From Pseudodesulfovibrio profundus (lineage in GTDB: Bacteria > Desulfobacterota > Desulfovibrionia > Desulfovibrionales > Desulfovibrionaceae), in assembly GCF_900217235.1 (NCBI RefSeq), contig NZ_LT907975.1, positions 2,641,001-2,705,000 on the forward strand: a DNA stretch of 64,000 nt, written 5' to 3'. A model generated the notes under the pieces. The model was not told the origin of the DNA. It ran no database searches and worked only from the letters and a program-made list of their open reading frames with translations. The position numbers were made by a program, and so were the translations under genes. Shown piece by piece: positions 6,383-16,952 of the stretch. Positions within the stretch are counted from its first letter, which is position 1; each line of letters starts with the position of its first letter.

Positions 6383-7351
6383 ATGAACGAACTACTTCGC
6401 TATTTCAGTAGGGAACTTCCCGCGATTAACGACTTTCTTGAGACTGAGGCAGATCAGCTCAATGGTCTCGTCAAGGAAGTTGCCAAGCATATAATCGGTT
6501 CGGGGGGGAAACGAATCCGCCCCATGCTCACCTTGTTGTTCGCTCGTGCCCACGGGTATGAGAAGGATGACTACCACGCCATCGCCTGCTCTCTGGAGCT
6601 GCTCCATTCTGCCACACTGCTTCACGATGACTATCTCGACGACGCAGAACTGCGCCGGGGCAAGGAAGCATCGCACCTCAAGTTCGGACGGACTGAGACC
6701 ATCCTTGCCGGTGATGCGCTGCTGGCCCTGGCCAACGAAATGGGTGCTCGCTACGGCAATGCCCGTCTTTCGTGGCTCCTGGCCAAAGGCATCATGGAGA
6801 CAGCGGTCGGTGAGATCGAGGAAATCCAGTTTTCCAAGAATCCCGAGTTGGATCGGGAGCGGTACATGGAGATCATTATCGGCAAGACAGCACGACTCAT
6901 CGAGTGCGCCTGCCGTTGTGGTGCTGCCCTGGCCGGAGCAACGCCGGAAGAGGAAGACCTCGCCGGTGAGTATGGCCTGAACCTCGGTATTGCCTTCCAG
7001 CTCGTTGACGATGCGCTTGATTACGCGTCCCCGACTTCGGAGACCGGCAAGCCAGAAGGTGGCGATCTCAAGGAAGGCAAGGTGACGTTGCCGCTTATTT
7101 TGCTCATGGAAGACAGTAACGAGGCCGAGAGCCGTGAGTTGCTGGATGCGCTGAAGACCACCGATCTCGAAGAAGAACGCTTTGAGGCCATTCTCGGGCG
7201 GGTCAAGGAAGGGCGCTACTCCGAAAAGACGCGAGAAGAGGCCGCCATGTATGTGGAAAAGGCCAAACGATGTCTGGACGGTTTCACCCCTGGCGAGGAG
7301 GTGGAAGTGCTCAAACAGGCTGCGGACTTTGTGCTGACCAGAACCAAGTAA
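6383..7351 (+). CDS. ispB: Polyprenyl diphosphate synthase (IspB-like)
   Basis: All-trans prenyl chain elongation enzyme supplying the menaquinone side chain. The first aspartate-rich motif HDDYLDDAELRRG is at residues ~77-89 and the second, LVDDALDY, at ~209-216. GGKRIRPMLTLL near residue 40 binds the pyrophosphate. At 322 residues it is the usual length for long-chain (C35-C45) synthases. The chain length cannot be read from sequence by eye. A hairpin at 7356-7384 separates it from purL. Confidence 0.88.
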   Translation: MNELLRYFSRELPAINDFLETEADQLNGLVKEVAKHIIGSGGKRIRPMLTLLFARAHGYEKDDYHAIACSLELLHSATLLHDDYLDDAELRRGKEASHLKFGRTETILAGDALLALANEMGARYGNARLSWLLAKGIMETAVGEIEEIQFSKNPELDRERYMEIIIGKTARLIECACRCGAALAGATPEEEDLAGEYGLNLGIAFQLVDDALDYASPTSETGKPEGGDLKEGKVTLPLILLMEDSNEAESRELLDALKTTDLEEERFEAILGRVKEGRYSEKTREEAAMYVEKAKRCLDGFTPGEEVEVLKQAADFVLTRTK

Positions 7352-7355
7352 TTTC

Positions 7356-7384
7356 AGGCCGGTCCCATCAGAGGAGACCGGCCT
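7356..7384 (+). terminator. Hairpin between the prenyl synthase and purL
   Basis: AGGCCGGTC (7356-7364) pairs with GACCGGCCT (7376-7384) and is followed by TCTGCATTT. The T-run is weak, so this may be a partial terminator or attenuator ahead of purL. Confidence 0.5.
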
Positions 7385-7414
7385 TCTGCATTTATATCGA
7401 GAGGAGAGAAGAAC

Positions 7415-10411
7415 ATGCTGTGCCGTGTTGTTGTCGGTTTGAAAGAAGGCGTACGTGATGTTGTTGGCGAAAAGTTCGGCCGCAAGATCAAGAGTGAACT
7501 GGGCATGGATGTGCGCGAGGTGCGCATCGTCAATGTCTATACGCTGGAAGGGCTTGAGCAGGAGCAGGTCGACCTTGCCCTGGAACGAGCTGCGTTGCAT
7601 GACCCGGTCCTGCATGAAGTATCCCTGGCACCGCTGGCCAGAGACTTCGACTGGATCATCGAGGTCGGATTCCGTCCCGGCGTGACGGATAACGAAGGCC
7701 GTACCGCCCGCGAGACCCTGGGTGTTGTCCTTGGTCTGAGCAAGGAAGCGCTTGAAACCGTCAAGGTCTACACTTCCAAGCAGTACCTGATCACCGCCGA
7801 TATGGACGAAGCCGCCATTCAACACGTAGCCAAGGACCTGCTCGCCAACGAGTTGATCCAGCGCTACGAGTACAAGTCTTCCGACACATGGACCAAGTCT
7901 CCCGGCTTTGAAGCCAAGGCCGCGCGCGTCACGGGCAAGGCGTCTGATGAAGTCGCGATCATCCCGCTTTCCACCATGTCCGATGAAGAAATGATGGCCT
8001 TTTCCCGCGCCAATACGCTGGCTCTCTCCCTGCGCGAGCTGCACGATATCCGCGATTACTACCTCGATCCCAAGGTCAAGAGCGAGCGCGAATCCCTCGG
8101 CTTGCCCGCTGATCCGACCGACGCGGAAATCGAAGTGCTGGCCCAGACATGGTCCGAGCACTGCAAACACAAGATTTTCTCTGCAAAAATCAACTACGAG
8201 AACCGCGAAACCGGCACCAGAAGCGAGATTTCCTCCCTCTACAAGACGTTTATTCAGGGTTCCACCAAGCAGATTCGCGAGCGCAATGCCGTTGAACGCG
8301 ACGGTGGCGACTACTGCCTCTCCGTGTTCAAGGATAATGCGGGCGTCATCGCCTTTTCCGAGACAATCAATGTCTGTGTGAAAATGGAGACCCACAACTC
8401 GCCTTCGGCTCTGGACCCCTACGGCGGAGCACTCACCGGTATTGTCGGCGTCAACCGTGACCCCATGGGTACCGGTATCGGTGCCAACCTGTTGTGTAAC
8501 ACCGATGTGTTCTGCTTTGCTTCCCCGTTCCACGAAGGGGAACTGCCCCCTCGCCTGCTGCATCCGCGCCGCGTCTTTGAAGGCGTGCGCGAAGGCGTCG
8601 AGCATGGCGGCAACAAGTCCGGTATTCCCACGGTCAACGGTTCCATCGTCTTTGACGAGCGTTACCTCGGCAAGCCGCTGGTCTACTGCGGCACCATCGG
8701 CACCATGCCGGTGGAAGTGGCAGGTCGCCCGTCCCATGAAAAATGCGCCTTGCCCGGTGACTGCATTGTCATGTCCGGTGGTCGTATCGGCGCGGACGGT
8801 ATCCACGGCGCGACGTTCTCTTCCGAAGAGTTGCACGAAGAGTCTCCGGCTACCGCAGTACAGATCGGTGACCCCATCACCCAGCGCAAGATGTACGATT
8901 TCCTGATGCGTGCCCGTGACCTCGGCCTGTACAACGCCATCACCGATAACGGTGCCGGTGGATTGTCCTCCTCCGTAGGCGAAATGGCTGAAGATTCCGG
9001 TGGGTTCGAGATGGACCTCGCCAAAGCGCCACTCAAGTATGATGGACTGCGCCCGTGGGAGATTCTCATCTCCGAAGCACAGGAACGCATGACCATGGCC
9101 GTGCCGCCGGAAAAGCTGGATCGCTTCATGGCGCTTTCGGCTGAGATGGATGTGGAATCCACCGTACTCGGTCATTTCACCGACTCCTGTAAATATTTTG
9201 TGAAGTATGGCGACAAGATCGTCACCTGTCTCGACATGGAATTCCTGCATGAGGGCGTACCGCAGATGGAACTCGACGCCATCTGGGAACGTCCCGAGAT
9301 TGCTGATGAGCCGATCCCTGCCGTGGAAGATCAGGCCGGACTGCTCAAGGACATGCTGGGCCGACTGAACATCTGCTCCAAAGAGTATGTGGTTCGCCAG
9401 TACGATCATGAAGTGCAGGGCGGCAGCGTCGTCAAGCCCATGGTCGGCGTCAAGGCCGATGGCCCGTCTGATGCCGGTGTTGTCCGTCCGCAGCTCGAAT
9501 CGGAGCAGGGACTGGTTATCTCACACGGTATCTGCCCTGAATATTCCGATATCGACACCTACTGGATGATGGCCAACGCCATTGATGAAGGTATCCGTAA
9601 CGCCGTTGCCGTTGGCGGTAATGTCAACTACATGGCCGGTTGCGACAACTTCTGCTGGTGCGATCCGGTCCAGTCTGAATCCACCCCTGACGGCCATTAC
9701 AAGCTTGCTCAGTTGGTGCGTGCCAACCAGGCCCTTGCTCACTACTGCCTCGGGTTCGGTGTGCCGTGCGTATCCGGTAAGGATTCCATGAAGAATGATT
9801 ACAAGGGCGGTGGGCACAAGATTTCCATTCCGCCGACCGTATTGTTCTCGGTTATTTCCGTTATTCCCGATGTGAACAAATGCCTGACCTCCGACTTCAA
9901 GCAGGCGGGTGATGGCATCTACATCCTCGGATTGACCCGTCCCGAGTTCGGCGGCAGTGAAATCGCCGGACAGCTCGGTTTCTCCAGCAGCGCCGTGCCT
10001 CAGGTTGATCTGCTGTCTGCCAAGAAACGGTATGAAACCATGTTCGACGTAACGCAGGCCGGGCTGGTCAATGCCGCCCATGACTGCTCGGACGGTGGGT
10101 TTGCCGTGGCTCTGGCCGAAATGTGCATCGGCGGCCGTATGGGTGCCGAAGTCAATCTGTCCAATCTGCCGGTTAACGGCGAGATGGATGACACGGGGCT
10201 TCTCTACGCAGAATCCGCCAGCCGCCTTGTGGTGACAGTGCCTGCGGCCAAGCAGGCCGAGTTTGAAGCGGCCTTTGCAGGTCAGGCTTTTGCTCGAGTA
10301 GGAGAAGTTACTGATTCCTCTAAACTTATCGTCAAATCGGACGATAGAATAGTAATTGAGGAGCATGTGGAAGCCCTTGCTGGAGCGTTCAAGGCAACGC
10401 TTGACTGGTAA
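7415..10411 (+). CDS. purL: Phosphoribosylformylglycinamidine synthase, PurS-PurL fusion
   Basis: Fourth step of purine synthesis: FGAR + ATP + ammonia to FGAM. The 998-residue protein begins with a PurS-like domain (~1-90), then a linker and the catalytic PurL region. The substrate/ATP motif HNSPSALDPYGGALTG is at ~328-343, and a second AIR-synthase half carries VGGNVNYMAGCDNFCWCDP and DCSDGGFAVALAEM. There is no C-terminal glutaminase domain, so a separate PurQ must supply ammonia. It is thus intermediate between the Gram-positive split PurS/PurL/PurQ and the ~1290-residue enterobacterial enzyme. GAGAGGAGAGAAG precedes the ATG. Confidence 0.92.
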   Translation: MLCRVVVGLKEGVRDVVGEKFGRKIKSELGMDVREVRIVNVYTLEGLEQEQVDLALERAALHDPVLHEVSLAPLARDFDWIIEVGFRPGVTDNEGRTARETLGVVLGLSKEALETVKVYTSKQYLITADMDEAAIQHVAKDLLANELIQRYEYKSSDTWTKSPGFEAKAARVTGKASDEVAIIPLSTMSDEEMMAFSRANTLALSLRELHDIRDYYLDPKVKSERESLGLPADPTDAEIEVLAQTWSEHCKHKIFSAKINYENRETGTRSEISSLYKTFIQGSTKQIRERNAVERDGGDYCLSVFKDNAGVIAFSETINVCVKMETHNSPSALDPYGGALTGIVGVNRDPMGTGIGANLLCNTDVFCFASPFHEGELPPRLLHPRRVFEGVREGVEHGGNKSGIPTVNGSIVFDERYLGKPLVYCGTIGTMPVEVAGRPSHEKCALPGDCIVMSGGRIGADGIHGATFSSEELHEESPATAVQIGDPITQRKMYDFLMRARDLGLYNAITDNGAGGLSSSVGEMAEDSGGFEMDLAKAPLKYDGLRPWEILISEAQERMTMAVPPEKLDRFMALSAEMDVESTVLGHFTDSCKYFVKYGDKIVTCLDMEFLHEGVPQMELDAIWERPEIADEPIPAVEDQAGLLKDMLGRLNICSKEYVVRQYDHEVQGGSVVKPMVGVKADGPSDAGVVRPQLESEQGLVISHGICPEYSDIDTYWMMANAIDEGIRNAVAVGGNVNYMAGCDNFCWCDPVQSESTPDGHYKLAQLVRANQALAHYCLGFGVPCVSGKDSMKNDYKGGGHKISIPPTVLFSVISVIPDVNKCLTSDFKQAGDGIYILGLTRPEFGGSEIAGQLGFSSSAVPQVDLLSAKKRYETMFDVTQAGLVNAAHDCSDGGFAVALAEMCIGGRMGAEVNLSNLPVNGEMDDTGLLYAESASRLVVTVPAAKQAEFEAAFAGQAFARVGEVTDSSKLIVKSDDRIVIEEHVEALAGAFKATLDW

Positions 10412-13257: not shown

Positions 13258-13290
13258 TTGACATAAATTGATCAATGTAATAATAGTTAC
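13258..13290 (+). promoter_or_regulatory. perR promoter and candidate autoregulatory operator
   Basis: TTGACA (13258-13263) lies 17 bp before TAATAG (13281-13286), a plausible -35/-10 pair. Over the -10 lies GTAATAATAGTTAC (13277-13290), with inverted GTAA/TTAC ends. The arrangement resembles the one in front of rbr, so both may be bound by the PerR-type protein encoded next door. Inferred from sequence similarity only. Confidence 0.4.
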
Positions 13291-13316: not shown

Positions 13317-13715
13317 ATGACGTCGGAAATGGGATTCAGGCTTTCCAAACAACGGAAAGTTATTCTGGAAGAATTGCGTAAAGTAACGTCGCATCCTACG
13401 GCGGATGAAGTATACGACATGGTCAGAAAGATTATCCCAAGAATCAGTCTTGGAACCGTGTATCGTAATCTTGAATTTTTGAGCAACAAAGGGCTTGTCC
13501 TCAAGCTTGGTGCTCCTGGTGCGCAGAAACGGTTTGATGGTACTCCTGAGCCTCATCCGCACATTCGATGTGCTGTCTGCACAGGTGTAGTTGACGTGGA
13601 GTGTGAAGTGGAAGTTCCACAGATTCCTGAAAGCTGCACCAGCGGATATAAGATTCTCAATACAAACGTCGAGTTTGTTGGCGTTTGCCCTCAGTGCCAG
13701 GAAGCGCAGCAGTAA
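13317..13715 (+). CDS. perR: Fur-family peroxide regulator (PerR-like)
   Basis: Metal-dependent repressor of 132 residues. A winged-helix DNA-binding domain (~10-75, with SLGTVYRNLEFLSNKGLV as the recognition region) precedes a dimerisation domain. Structural-zinc cysteines are C85-x-x-C88 and C124-x-x-C127. H26 lies in the SHPTADEVY segment where PerR has an oxidisable histidine, and H80/H82 are further metal ligands. The short length and position directly before rbr, dfx and roo favour PerR over Fur, but the family assignment is inference. The start has AGCAGGGGG upstream. Confidence 0.82.
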   Translation: MTSEMGFRLSKQRKVILEELRKVTSHPTADEVYDMVRKIIPRISLGTVYRNLEFLSNKGLVLKLGAPGAQKRFDGTPEPHPHIRCAVCTGVVDVECEVEVPQIPESCTSGYKILNTNVEFVGVCPQCQEAQQ

Positions 13716-13813: not shown

Positions 13814-13992
13814 CATTCTCACATCGGGTTTCATTCATATGAATCGCTGATGGAAGATTACTATGTTACCAGTTGTGTTGGCGGTGCTTGGGCCACAGTT
13901 GTGTTAGGCCCTGTACATTTTATTTGAATATGGTAGAACCTAGGTTCAATTCGATTTACAAATCTACTCGACCGAAAGTGTCAGGAGGAACT

Positions 13993-14565
13993 ATGTCTCT
14001 TAAAGGAACGAAAACGGAAAAGAATATCTTGACTGCGTTTATTGGTGAATCTCAGGCACGCAATAAGTACACCTATTTCGCCAGTGTCGCGAAAAAAGAA
14101 GGATACGTTCAGATATCCAAGATTTTTGAAGAAACAGCCAACCACGAGAAAGAACACGCTAAGCGCCTGTTCAAGTTCCTTGAAGGTGGCGACGCAGAAA
14201 TCACTGCCACTTTCCCGGCTGGCAAGATCGGCAACACCGTTGAGAACCTCAAGGCCGCTGCACACGGCGAAAATGAGGAATACTCTGAAATGTACCCCGA
14301 GTTCGCAGCCATTGCCCGTGAAGAAGGATTCCCGGAGATTGCTGCTGTCATGGAAAACATCGCCGTTGCTGAAAAATACCATGAAGAACGCTATCTTTCT
14401 CTTCTCGACAATATCGAGAAAGAGCGTGTGTTCGTAAAGGACAAGGAAATCGTCTGGCGCTGTCAGAACTGTGGTTACAACCACAAGGGAACCACTGCTC
14501 CGGTTGCCTGCCCGGCCTGTGACCATCCTCAGTCCCACTTCGAAATCAAAGATACCAACTGGTAA
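13993..14565 (+). CDS. rbr: Rubrerythrin
   Basis: Non-heme diiron peroxidase that reduces hydrogen peroxide with electrons from rubredoxin. The 190-residue protein has the four-helix diiron domain with Glu/His ligands in IGESQARNKYTYF, EETANHEKEHAKR, EEYSEMYPEFAAIAREEG and AVAEKYHEER. A C-terminal rubredoxin-like domain follows (CQNCGY... ACPACDHP, two CXXC pairs). I chose the ATG at 13993 because AGGAGG lies 3-9 bp upstream and the protein then starts as other rubrerythrins do. It is followed by dfx 25 bp later, probably in one transcript behind the inverted-repeat promoter. Confidence 0.95.
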   Translation: MSLKGTKTEKNILTAFIGESQARNKYTYFASVAKKEGYVQISKIFEETANHEKEHAKRLFKFLEGGDAEITATFPAGKIGNTVENLKAAAHGENEEYSEMYPEFAAIAREEGFPEIAAVMENIAVAEKYHEERYLSLLDNIEKERVFVKDKEIVWRCQNCGYNHKGTTAPVACPACDHPQSHFEIKDTNW

Positions 14566-14590: not shown

Positions 14591-14980
14591 ATGGCTATTA
14601 AATTGGGTGAAGTTTACAAATGTGAAGCATGTGGCAACATGGTTATCGCTATCCACGAAGGTGGCGGAGACCTCGTTTGCTGTGGTGAAGAAATGATCCT
14701 GATGACCGAAAACACCGTAGACGCAGCCAAAGAAAAGCACGTCCCGGTCGTTGAGAAAGATGGCGATAAGGTCACCGTCAAGGTCGGCAGCGTTCCTCAT
14801 CCCATGGAAGAAAAGCACTACATTGAGTGGATAGAGTGCCAGATCGGCGACACCGTTTTCACCAAGATGCTCAAGCCCGGTGATGCACCGGAAGCTGAGT
14901 TCTGCGCTTGCGGTCTTTCCGGCGATATCGTCGTTCGCGAATACTGCAACCTGCACGGACTTTGGAAGGCTGAAGCGTAA
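14591..14980 (+). CDS. dfx: Desulfoferrodoxin (superoxide reductase)
   Basis: Cytoplasmic iron protein that reduces superoxide to peroxide. The N-terminal desulforedoxin domain (center I) has KCEACGNMV and VCCGEEM. The C-terminal SOR domain (center II) has EKHVPV (Glu47-Lys48-His49), [13 protein letters not shown] with two His ligands, and [11 protein letters not shown] with the Cys and last His. At 129 residues it is the two-iron class. It starts 25 bp after rbr with CAAGGAG upstream. Its product peroxide would be removed by rubrerythrin. Confidence 0.96.
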
Positions 14981-15114
14981 GCTGACGTTTTTTACCTGTG
15001 TTATGAAAATGAGGGTGGGCTTTGCCTGCCCTCATTCTGCTCTGTAGGATCGAAATCGCCAAACGGCGTAAGAATTTTCCCCGGGGGGGATATTTTTCAA
15101 TCAGGAGTATGATC

Positions 15115-15564
15115 ATGGCTCGCCCCGAAGATATGTGGCAATGTCAGACAGTGAATTGTGGCTATATTTACAACCCGGACAAGGGTGATCGGAGGGGAAA
15201 GATCAAGAAAGGCACGTTGTTCCAGGATATCCCTGATGAATGGCGTTGTCCCATCTGCGGTGGGACGAAAAAATGCTTCCGCCCCCTGGTCGGCCCCGGA
15301 TCTACCAAAGCCGACTGCGAGCTGCCGGTCGAAACCGATCCTCAGAAGTTGACAGCAGCAGCCACTGCTGCAAAAGTAACTACTCAAAAGGAGAATGACC
15401 CCATGCAGAAATACGTTTGTGAGATTTGCGGCTATGTTTATGACCCTGAACAGGGTGATCCTGATAGTGATATCGCACCGGGCACCAGCTTCGACGATCT
15501 GCCCGATGATTGGACCTGTCCCATCTGCGGGGCAACCAAAGAGAGCTTTGTTCCTGAAGACTAG
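15115..15564 (+). CDS. Two-domain rubredoxin (fused) with internal start
   Basis: Electron carrier for rubrerythrin, superoxide reductase and the flavodiiron oxidase. The 149-residue frame holds two complete rubredoxin domains. Domain 1 (~1-60) has CQTVNC, with four rather than two residues between its first cysteines, and CPIC. Domain 2 (~97-149) is a canonical CEIC...CPIC rubredoxin. They are joined by an Ala/Thr-rich linker. A strong ribosome binding site AAAAGGAG (15386-15393) lies 9 bp before an in-frame ATG at 15403, so the second domain can also be made alone. This looks like two adjacent rubredoxin genes joined by loss of a stop codon. The start at 15115 has AGGAG at proper spacing. 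Confidence 0.9.
15386..15405 (+). promoter_or_regulatory. Internal ribosome binding site and start for the second rubredoxin
   Basis: AAAAGGAG at 15386-15393 is followed 9 bp later by ATG (15403), in frame with the upstream rubredoxin. Translation from here gives a normal 53-residue rubredoxin beginning [15 protein letters not shown]. Confidence 0.65.
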
Positions 15565-15746
15565 GATACAGGCAAGTTTTCATGAGTAACGTCGAACTGA
15601 AGAACCCCTTCCCGACGTTGCTGATATCGCTGAAGGGTAGCTGTGGTTCGGCCCCTGAACGTGAAATTTTTACATCGAAGCGCGTGCCACTGGCCGCGCT
15701 TCTTTTGGAACTGACGGTTGATTGACCGTTCAATACGGAGAAAAGA

Positions 15747-16952
15747 ATGAGACCAGTTGAAATTAAAGAAGGAATTTTCTGGACAGGTGTGGTGGATTGG
15801 AATCGCCGTAACTTTCACGGTTACTCCATTTCCCACAAAGGCACCACGTATAACAACTTCCTGATCAAGGACGAGAAAGTTGCCCTGATCGATACTGTTG
15901 CTGAAGAGTTCTGGGGTGCGATGCAGTGCAATCTGGCTCATGTTCTTGGCCCCGAAGGCAAGATCGACTACTTCATCATCAATCACCTTGAGCCGGATCA
16001 TGCCGGTTGCCTCGCCCTCGCCGTTGAGAAGTACCAGCCTGAGAAAATCTACACCTCCCCCATGGGGCAGAAAGCAATGCAGGCTCACTTCCATTACAAG
16101 GACTGGCCTGTTGAAGTCGTGCCCACCGGCAGTGAAATCTCCCTCGGCAAGCGCACCCTGCAGTTCGTGGAAACCCGCATGCTGCACTGGCCTGACGCCA
16201 TGCTGACCTACTGCCCGGAAGACAAGATCGCGTTCACCAACGATGCGTTCGGTCAGAACTGGGCCACCAGCGAGCGTTTTGCCGATCAAGTGGATCGCAC
16301 CTTCCTCGAAGATCTGATGAAGACCTACTACGCCAACATTGTTCTTCCTTATTCGCCTGTGGTTCTCAAGACCCTCAAGGCGCTGGAAGAGATGAATCTT
16401 GATATCGACATGATCTGCCCTGACCACGGCCTGATGTTCCGCGGTAAGGAAGAGTGCAAATGGGTGCTCGACAAGTACGTTGAGTTTGCCGAGCAGAAGC
16501 CGAAAAAGAAAGCTGTCATCGTGTTCGACACCATGTGGCACTCCACGGAAAACATGGCCAACGCCGTGGCTTCCGGACTGGCTGACGAAGGTATCTCTGT
16601 TCGTGTCATGTCCATGAAGTCCAACCATCACTCCGAAGTGATGACCGAGATTTTCGATGCCGCTGCCGTCATCGTTGGTTCACCCACTCACAACAACGGT
16701 ATCCTGCCGCTCATGGCAGACATGCTGACCTACATGAAGGGACTGCGCCCGCAGAACAAGATCGGCGCGGCCATCGGTTCCTTTGGTTGGTCCGGTGAGT
16801 GCGTCAAGGTACTGACCCAGGCTCTTGAGGAAATGGGCATGGACATTGTTGATCCGATCAAGGTCAAACATGTGCCGACCCATGACACCCTAGTCCAGTG
16901 CTACCAGCAGGGCAAGGATATCGCAGCCGCCATCAAGGCAAAGCTCGATTAA
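15747..16952 (+). CDS. roo: Rubredoxin:oxygen oxidoreductase (flavodiiron protein)
   Basis: Terminal oxygen (possibly also NO) reductase of the cytoplasm, taking electrons from rubredoxin. The 401-residue protein has an N-terminal beta-lactamase-like diiron domain with HLEPDHAG (H80, E82, D84, H85), later ligands in MLHWPDAM and TNDAFGQN, and ICPDHGLMF. From ~252 a flavodoxin domain binds FMN (FDTMWHSTENMA, VGSPTHNNG, GSFGWSGE). This is the A-type flavodiiron layout without extra domains. It begins 182 bp after the rubredoxin stop. A terminator follows at 17015. Confidence 0.95.
   Translation: MRPVEIKEGIFWTGVVDWNRRNFHGYSISHKGTTYNNFLIKDEKVALIDTVAEEFWGAMQCNLAHVLGPEGKIDYFIINHLEPDHAGCLALAVEKYQPEKIYTSPMGQKAMQAHFHYKDWPVEVVPTGSEISLGKRTLQFVETRMLHWPDAMLTYCPEDKIAFTNDAFGQNWATSERFADQVDRTFLEDLMKTYYANIVLPYSPVVLKTLKALEEMNLDIDMICPDHGLMFRGKEECKWVLDKYVEFAEQKPKKKAVIVFDTMWHSTENMANAVASGLADEGISVRVMSMKSNHHSEVMTEIFDAAAVIVGSPTHNNGILPLMADMLTYMKGLRPQNKIGAAIGSFGWSGECVKVLTQALEEMGMDIVDPIKVKHVPTHDTLVQCYQQGKDIAAAIKAKLD

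Follow-up and report, generated by a model that had tools for sequence, protein, structure and literature searches.

A conserved promoter-like block and ribosome-binding site within the linker codons of a fused double rubredoxin gene of Pseudodesulfovibrio

In Pseudodesulfovibrio profundus two rubredoxins are encoded by one open frame, rd, and the DNA between the two domains contains a Shine-Dalgarno-like sequence followed by an in-frame ATG. This arrangement raises the question of whether one protein or two are made from the gene and, if two, whether both come from the same message. The 64,000 nucleotides surrounding rd (hereafter the window, to which positions refer; Table 1) were analyzed together with a search of 36 genomes of the genus, all of which gave matches.

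Table 1. Features of the rd locus, with positions in the window
Feature	Position	Strand	Evidence
rbr, rubrerythrin, adjoins dfx	13990–14565	+	PF02915; NF045767 above cut-off
dfx, desulfoferrodoxin/superoxide reductase	14591–14980	+	TIGR00320, 187.1 bits vs 146.9
G+C-rich hairpin, terminator-like, in the dfx-rd gap	15010–15034	+	home-made hairpin scan; poor T-tract in the window
Shine-Dalgarno AGGAG of the long ORF	15103–15107	+	sequence
Fused rubredoxin ORF (rd), 149 aa: CX4C rubredoxin, linker, CX2C rubredoxin	15115–15564	+	open frame, profile matches
Domain 1, CX4C-type rubredoxin, residues 8–55	15136–15279	+	PF00301; PDB 8ito relative
Proposed −35 hexamer TTGACA of the internal promoter, codons 79–80	15349–15354	+	30/31 fused genes, 5/5 unfused genomes
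Proposed extended −10, TGC then AAAAGT (T−15, G−14, A−11, T−7)	15369–15377	+	0, 0, 0 and 1 changes on tree
Internal Shine-Dalgarno AAAAGGAG	15386–15393	+	AGGAG in 31/31 fused genes; codons 91–93 with zero synonymous change
Nested rubredoxin ORF, 53 aa, internal ATG (Met97)	15403–15564	+	NF045768 alone; ATG in 31/31 fused genes
Predicted intrinsic terminator 3′ of rd, GAAGCGCG...CGCGCTTC-TTTT	15677–15706	+	hairpin scan; partly also terminator scan
roo, flavodiiron rubredoxin:oxygen oxidoreductase	15747–16952	+	PF19583 and PF00258; follows rd in 36/36

As the preliminary description had proposed, a single frame carries two rubredoxin domains: 15115–15564 is open throughout and PF00301 matches both halves, with 66.8 bits for residues 1–96 alone and 91.2 bits (cut-off 23) for the part from Met97 alone. 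The second domain alone also scores 106.4 bits with NCBIfam NF045768, above its cut-off of 90; the first domain alone, with 61.3 bits, stays under this equivalog cut-off of 90. The cysteine ligands are arranged as CX4C and CX2C in domain 1 and as two CX2C pairs in domain 2, and all four are intact in each domain of all 31 fused genes found in the genus. By family profile and cysteine ligands both domains are rubredoxins, with electron transfer and binding of one Fe per domain predicted. Nearest to domain 1 is PDB 8ito, a CX4C rubredoxin; its alignment with domain 1 plus the tail of that domain spans 73 residues and scores 129.5 bits. Whereas 8ito is a chain of 75 residues and its counterparts in other families of the order are separate genes, here the domain is fused. 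A rubredoxin-2 with CX4C-type spacing is also known from D. desulfuricans 27774. AlphaFold returned two better-predicted domains and, at residues 69–95, a linker with pLDDT below 50 (confidence is modest overall, with mean pLDDT 69.7 and pTM 0.37); the linker is predicted to be disordered.

The gene order rbr-dfx-rd-roo is found in all 36 genomes, and in the window a FUR-family regulator gene (13317–13715) lies upstream of rbr. The rd-roo gene pair is known from Desulfovibrio. The same kinds of genes are adjacent in the P. methanolicus cluster rbo-rub-sorA-rbo-perR, whose second rbo is a rubrerythrin; in the accessible part of that report rub is one rubredoxin, with no mention of a fusion or a nested start (PMC11505543).

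The frame is fused in 31 of the 36 genomes and unfused in G019, G013, G003, G012 and G033. In a tree of rbr, dfx and roo rooted on other families (a quick tree with SH-aLRT support only and several weak forks), the five unfused forms branch from within the fused group at four or more points. The loci examined from the order's other families have either one gene for each domain or a CX4C gene with no canonical rubredoxin nearby. The unfused forms look like later breaks, which suggests a fusion that is old in the genus and was broken several times. The preliminary description had taken the fusion for a recent one, caused by loss of a stop codon, and had proposed a comparison of separate versus fused genes in related genomes as a check. 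Since the unfused forms are nested among the 31 fused ones, this comparison contradicts recency.

The internal ribosome-binding site and start pointed out in the same description are present: AAAAGGAG is followed by 9 nt and then by ATG 15403 (Met97). Neither AGGAG nor ATG has any base change on the tree of the 31 fused genes. Constraint on codons was assessed by counting codon differences between species that share an amino acid and comparing the counts with expectations specific to the species pair and the residue. The test used 30 fused genes, with rbr, dfx, roo and the rest of rd as controls; L012, near-identical to L010, was dropped from it and kept in the motif, parsimony and base-by-base counts (31 rows). 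In the 30 species, 320 synonymous differences would be expected in codons 91–93 (CAA-AAG-GAG) and none is seen (observed/expected 0.00), which places the site beyond chance; for codons 78–80 (AAG TTG ACA) the count is 32 against 474 (0.07). When the 834 three-codon windows of rbr, dfx, rd and roo are ranked, both fall in the bottom three; the only other zero window, roo 170–172 (0 against 220), ties with rd codons 91–93 as lowest. We conclude that, on this evidence, the internal Shine-Dalgarno sequence and start codon are under selection at the DNA level.

Single columns point the same way. By parsimony no codon change is seen at Leu79 (46 control Leu columns have a mean of 8.3 and a minimum of 3), at Lys78 and Lys92 (56 controls, minimum 1) or at Ala85 (59 controls, minimum 2). 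Gln91 and Glu93, also with no change, and Thr80, with one, are not unique when taken alone, since 3 of 16, 2 of 68 and 5 of 40 controls, respectively, are as low (for Thr80, as low or lower). Codons that are rare in the control genes are fixed in the linker: TTG, 11% of Leu codons, and ACA, 5% of Thr codons, each in 30 of 31 genes, and CAA, 5% of Gln codons, in all 22 genes where position 91 is Gln. Codon 85 ends in T in 30 of 30 genes although four different amino acids are encoded there; no other of the 175 columns with at least four amino acids is free of third-base changes. The remaining third bases of codons 81–90 changed 5–13 times each on the tree.

The conserved DNA upstream of the Shine-Dalgarno sequence has the layout TTGACA-N14-TG-N2-A-N3-T and lies 25 nt 5′ of ATG 15403. 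Promoters of the σ70 type have a −35 element TTGACA, a spacer of 16–18 bp and a −10 element with A−11 and T−7. The block in the window shows this layout (TTGACA, a 17-bp spacer and an extended −10 with A−11 and T−7), and the bases that hardly change in the linker are those needed by a σ70 promoter; promoter activity is what the likeness suggests. TTGACA underwent 3 changes in total over its six bases on the tree, and G023 is the sole fused gene without it. Its distance to TG is 14 nt in all 35 genomes that have TTGACA, the few length changes all lying downstream. One early branch has four fused genes with A in place of T−7, which the unfused G013 also lacks. As a −10 the hexamer is weak: it reads AAAAGT or GAATAT, with 3/6 consensus matches and no T−12, and a promoter scan of the window requiring 4/6 matches in the −10 did not list the linker promoter.

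The unfused genomes separate the block from the fusion. In all five, TTGACA-N14-TG and a Shine-Dalgarno-ATG unit stand directly before a canonical rubredoxin that is not joined to domain 1, with 51–54 bp from the start of the element to the ATG. G003 lacks domain 1 and its block is intergenic. In G013 (draft, 81% complete) the block is out of frame, with an in-frame stop one codon 5′ of the ATG, and in G019 (draft, 87% complete) the linker has two stops with the block behind them. G012 and G033 have tandem copies, the roo-proximal rubredoxin with an intact block and the copy adjacent to domain 1 degraded and without an exact TTGACA. The strongest cases of a block without a fusion are G003, G013 and the pair G012 and G033. 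In G019, G012, G033 and G003 the block lies within an open stretch of 63–102 nt in frame with the rubredoxin, where some N-terminal extension of that protein is possible. The intact block before canonical rubredoxins of unfused genomes indicates that selection follows the rubredoxin-roo side and not the linker peptide.

Conservation of a Leu-Thr pair in the protein was considered as a cause of the pattern at codons 79–80 and was rejected, because the DNA is kept both at synonymous sites and in unfused genomes.

Limits of transcripts were sought with a home-made hairpin scan, which had no shuffled control and accepted two or more T near the stem end. With this uncontrolled scan, a somewhat T-rich hairpin was found between dfx and rd in 30 of the 36 genomes (not in G018, G029, G030, G005, G016 and G013), and a hairpin followed by T between rd and roo in 35 (none found in G011). 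In 21 of the 29 genomes having both, the dfx-rd hairpin ends 17–29 nt 5′ of the long ORF. This leaves little room for a separate promoter, so that the long product probably depends on read-through past the hairpin; in the window the gap is 76 nt and a promoter upstream of the long ORF is possible. The rd-roo hairpin would end a short transcript 3′ of the nested gene. Taken together, the promoter-like element in the linker and the hairpin that is often found before the long ORF suggest that the 53-residue protein probably has an mRNA of its own. The earlier proposal of two protein sizes from one message thus probably holds for the two sizes, since selection acts on the internal ribosome-binding site and on the ATG, and probably fails for the shared message.

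From the fusion, its spread, the DNA-level constraint and the presence of the same block in unfused genomes, all read directly from the sequences, we infer promoter activity, a transcript start point, two proteins, an electron flow and an intergenic origin of the block, as follows. We consider it likely that rd harbours a second gene within its frame, equipped with a promoter, a ribosome-binding site and a terminator of its own; the promoter and leader of this nested gene would serve at the same time as codons for the linker of the fused protein. A long transcript, arising by read-through from rbr-dfx or from a putative upstream promoter, would be translated from 15115 into the double rubredoxin, in which a disordered linker joins the CX4C to the CX2C domain. 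A short transcript would start within the linker codons, at about 15384, from the σ70-type promoter (TTGACA at 15349, extended −10 at 15369–15377) and would end at the 15677–15706 terminator or read on into roo. Translated from ATG 15403 by use of AAAAGGAG, it would yield a rubredoxin of the ordinary kind, 53 residues long, which likely donates electrons directly to the neighbouring flavodiiron oxidase. The linker peptide would be a former intergenic promoter and leader read as codons, and its Leu-Thr and Lys/Gln-Glu residues would be conserved because the DNA element sets them.

Fused genes also occur, with other linkers, in UBA4079, Humidesulfovibrio-type and Desulfobulbales-type genomes. 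Fifteen joints from outside the genus were compared: eight from UBA4079 or Humidesulfovibrio-type genomes, six of Desulfobulbales type (L069, L072, L074, L075, L076 and L080) and L079 from Deltaproteobacteria; a further relative, L081, was left out of the count. A Shine-Dalgarno-like purine run with ATG or GTG is present at 14 of the 15 joints, the joint of L079 having neither. AGGAG stands shortly before ATG in all eight UBA4079 and Humidesulfovibrio-type joints; weaker cases are L069, L075 and L076, in which the purine run ends just 2 nt from ATG, and L074, in which AAGGA is farther from the start. TTGACA is absent from all 15 joints compared. That other fused lineages keep the Shine-Dalgarno-like run without TTGACA would suit a single mRNA giving both proteins by internal initiation, with only the internal ribosome-binding site of importance and TTGACA incidental, and within the genus the Shine-Dalgarno sequence and ATG are indeed the most strictly kept part (31/31). 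We nevertheless regard this as unlikely, as a pure ribosome-binding site leaves unexplained why TTGACA and TG-N2-A-N3-T persist at an unvarying spacing, including at synonymous sites and in non-coding DNA.

The block could also be a regulator-binding site or an RNA element instead of a core promoter, the ribosome-binding site still being used. The weakness of the −10 would agree with this, as would the constraint on the AAG codon ahead of TTGACA and the lack of enrichment in the genome. The exact promoter pattern has 3 matches genome-wide against 5 for a reversed control and 10 and 7 at two wrong spacings (few are expected and the power is small), and TTGACA-N17-TANNNT has 17 against 21 for the reversed control, with 9 against 19 at a wrong spacing (again with little power). 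However, the kept bases and the 17-bp spacer fit the contacts of σ70. Predicted RNA folds differ among relatives: MFE folds alone, computed for five sequences, had no shared stem-loop structure in the linker. A site of this kind other than a promoter is in our judgement distinctly unlikely.

Is the fused protein itself of use? If stops had been free to arise, about 11 would be expected from the changes in the linker, against 4–5 breaks of any kind in the genus. This deficit argues for selection on the long form with moderate strength only, because only genes with an open frame were counted as fused. Retention of the nested gene without the fusion in five genomes, and a hairpin often just 5′ of the long ORF, would be in line with a locus at which only the single rubredoxin matters and the long frame is open by chance, the fused protein being neither made nor used. 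Set against the intact ligands of domain 1 in 31 of 31 genes and, more moderately, the deficit of stops, this appears very unlikely. That only the fused protein is made, with the internal Shine-Dalgarno sequence and promoter as leftovers from before the fusion, agrees with a frame open in 31 of 36 genomes but is hardly credible, since leftovers would decay and linker codons 66–96 have at least 430 nucleotide changes on the tree with almost none in the promoter/Shine-Dalgarno element.

Each component of the favoured arrangement, a nested gene with its own promoter, has precedents: rubredoxins that are double or of CX4C type, in-frame starts farther downstream, and promoters located in coding regions. 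AlkG (rubredoxin-2) of Pseudomonas putida GPo1, which serves the alkane hydroxylase AlkB, likewise has two rubredoxin domains per chain and a long linker (70 aa), with CXXCG motifs; the accessible part of the source mentions no internal start (PMC3604635). Compared with AlkG as described there, domain 1 of rd is CX4C and not CXXC and so departs from the AlkG-type CXXCG pattern, the linker is about 40 aa long and includes promoter-like and ribosome-binding sequences, and rd has rbr, dfx and roo as neighbours, AlkB/AlkT being the partners in the AlkG type. N-terminally truncated bacterial proteoforms arise from downstream starts, over half of those in E. coli removing fewer than 15 aa (PMC13245402), and promoters within coding regions have been reported (PMC9600179). 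The rd gene resembles these cases, so far as the accessible parts of both reports describe them, in its in-frame internal start and in a promoter-like block inside a coding sequence. It differs from the truncated proteoforms in that the start would release a complete second domain and that promoter-like block, ribosome-binding site and terminator are kept genus-wide.

In the open-licence PMC texts, titles and abstract openings name no double rubredoxin or nested start in Desulfovibrionaceae, which leaves their absence unproven, and linker codons resembling the conserved promoter and leader of a gene's own second domain were not found in combination in that open-licence literature. New here is the promoter-like TTGACA-N14-TG-N2-A-N3-T in linker DNA. 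It seems fairly likely that this fusion has kept separate expression, one stretch of DNA being selected both as promoter and as flexible peptide throughout the genus, and that at least one fused lineage outside it has likewise kept the ribosome-binding site. The locus would then be a natural case of two genes fusing with no loss of independent control, in which a promoter sets the sequence of a linker peptide. Annotation by the longest frame gives one rubredoxin of 149 aa and would miss the 53-aa protein, probably the usual donor of the oxygen reductase. Since five genomes retain the element without the fusion, comparisons for the role of each product in oxygen defence are at hand within the genus.

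Several minor observations were made. The tandem copies of linker and rubredoxin lie on the minus strand of L036 (G033, 1000–2010) and L037 (G012, 1070–1750), with the diverged copy beside domain 1 and the fusion lost; G033 has a further rubredoxin-like frame between its copies. A second rubredoxin match in the P. profundus genome, L002 (G000:C1:3903303-3903470), lies in a frame of 65 aa and shares 57% identity with domain 2. A search of a plasmid collection gave only short matches of 60–80% identity in 5 records. On the minus strand at 6392–9409, a frame of 1005 codons lies opposite the 998-aa frame at 7415–10411, which we take from its sequence to be purL; the former is probably a by-product of codon usage. 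Ahead of the FUR-family gene (13317), TTGACA and a −10-like AATAGT are found at 13258–13287, so that a perfect −35 box also occurs at an ordinary intergenic site nearby. The dfx-rd gaps of L005 and L007 are unusually long (370 and 458 nt), and both contain the motif GAGGTTGTGGAGAAAGGTTCAAG, which may be a short repeat element. Before roo, at 15716–15733, the motif GGTTGA-N4-CCGNTCAA (in the window GGTTGATTGACCGTTCAA) recurs in several genomes of the genus and could be an operator, or part of a promoter, for roo.
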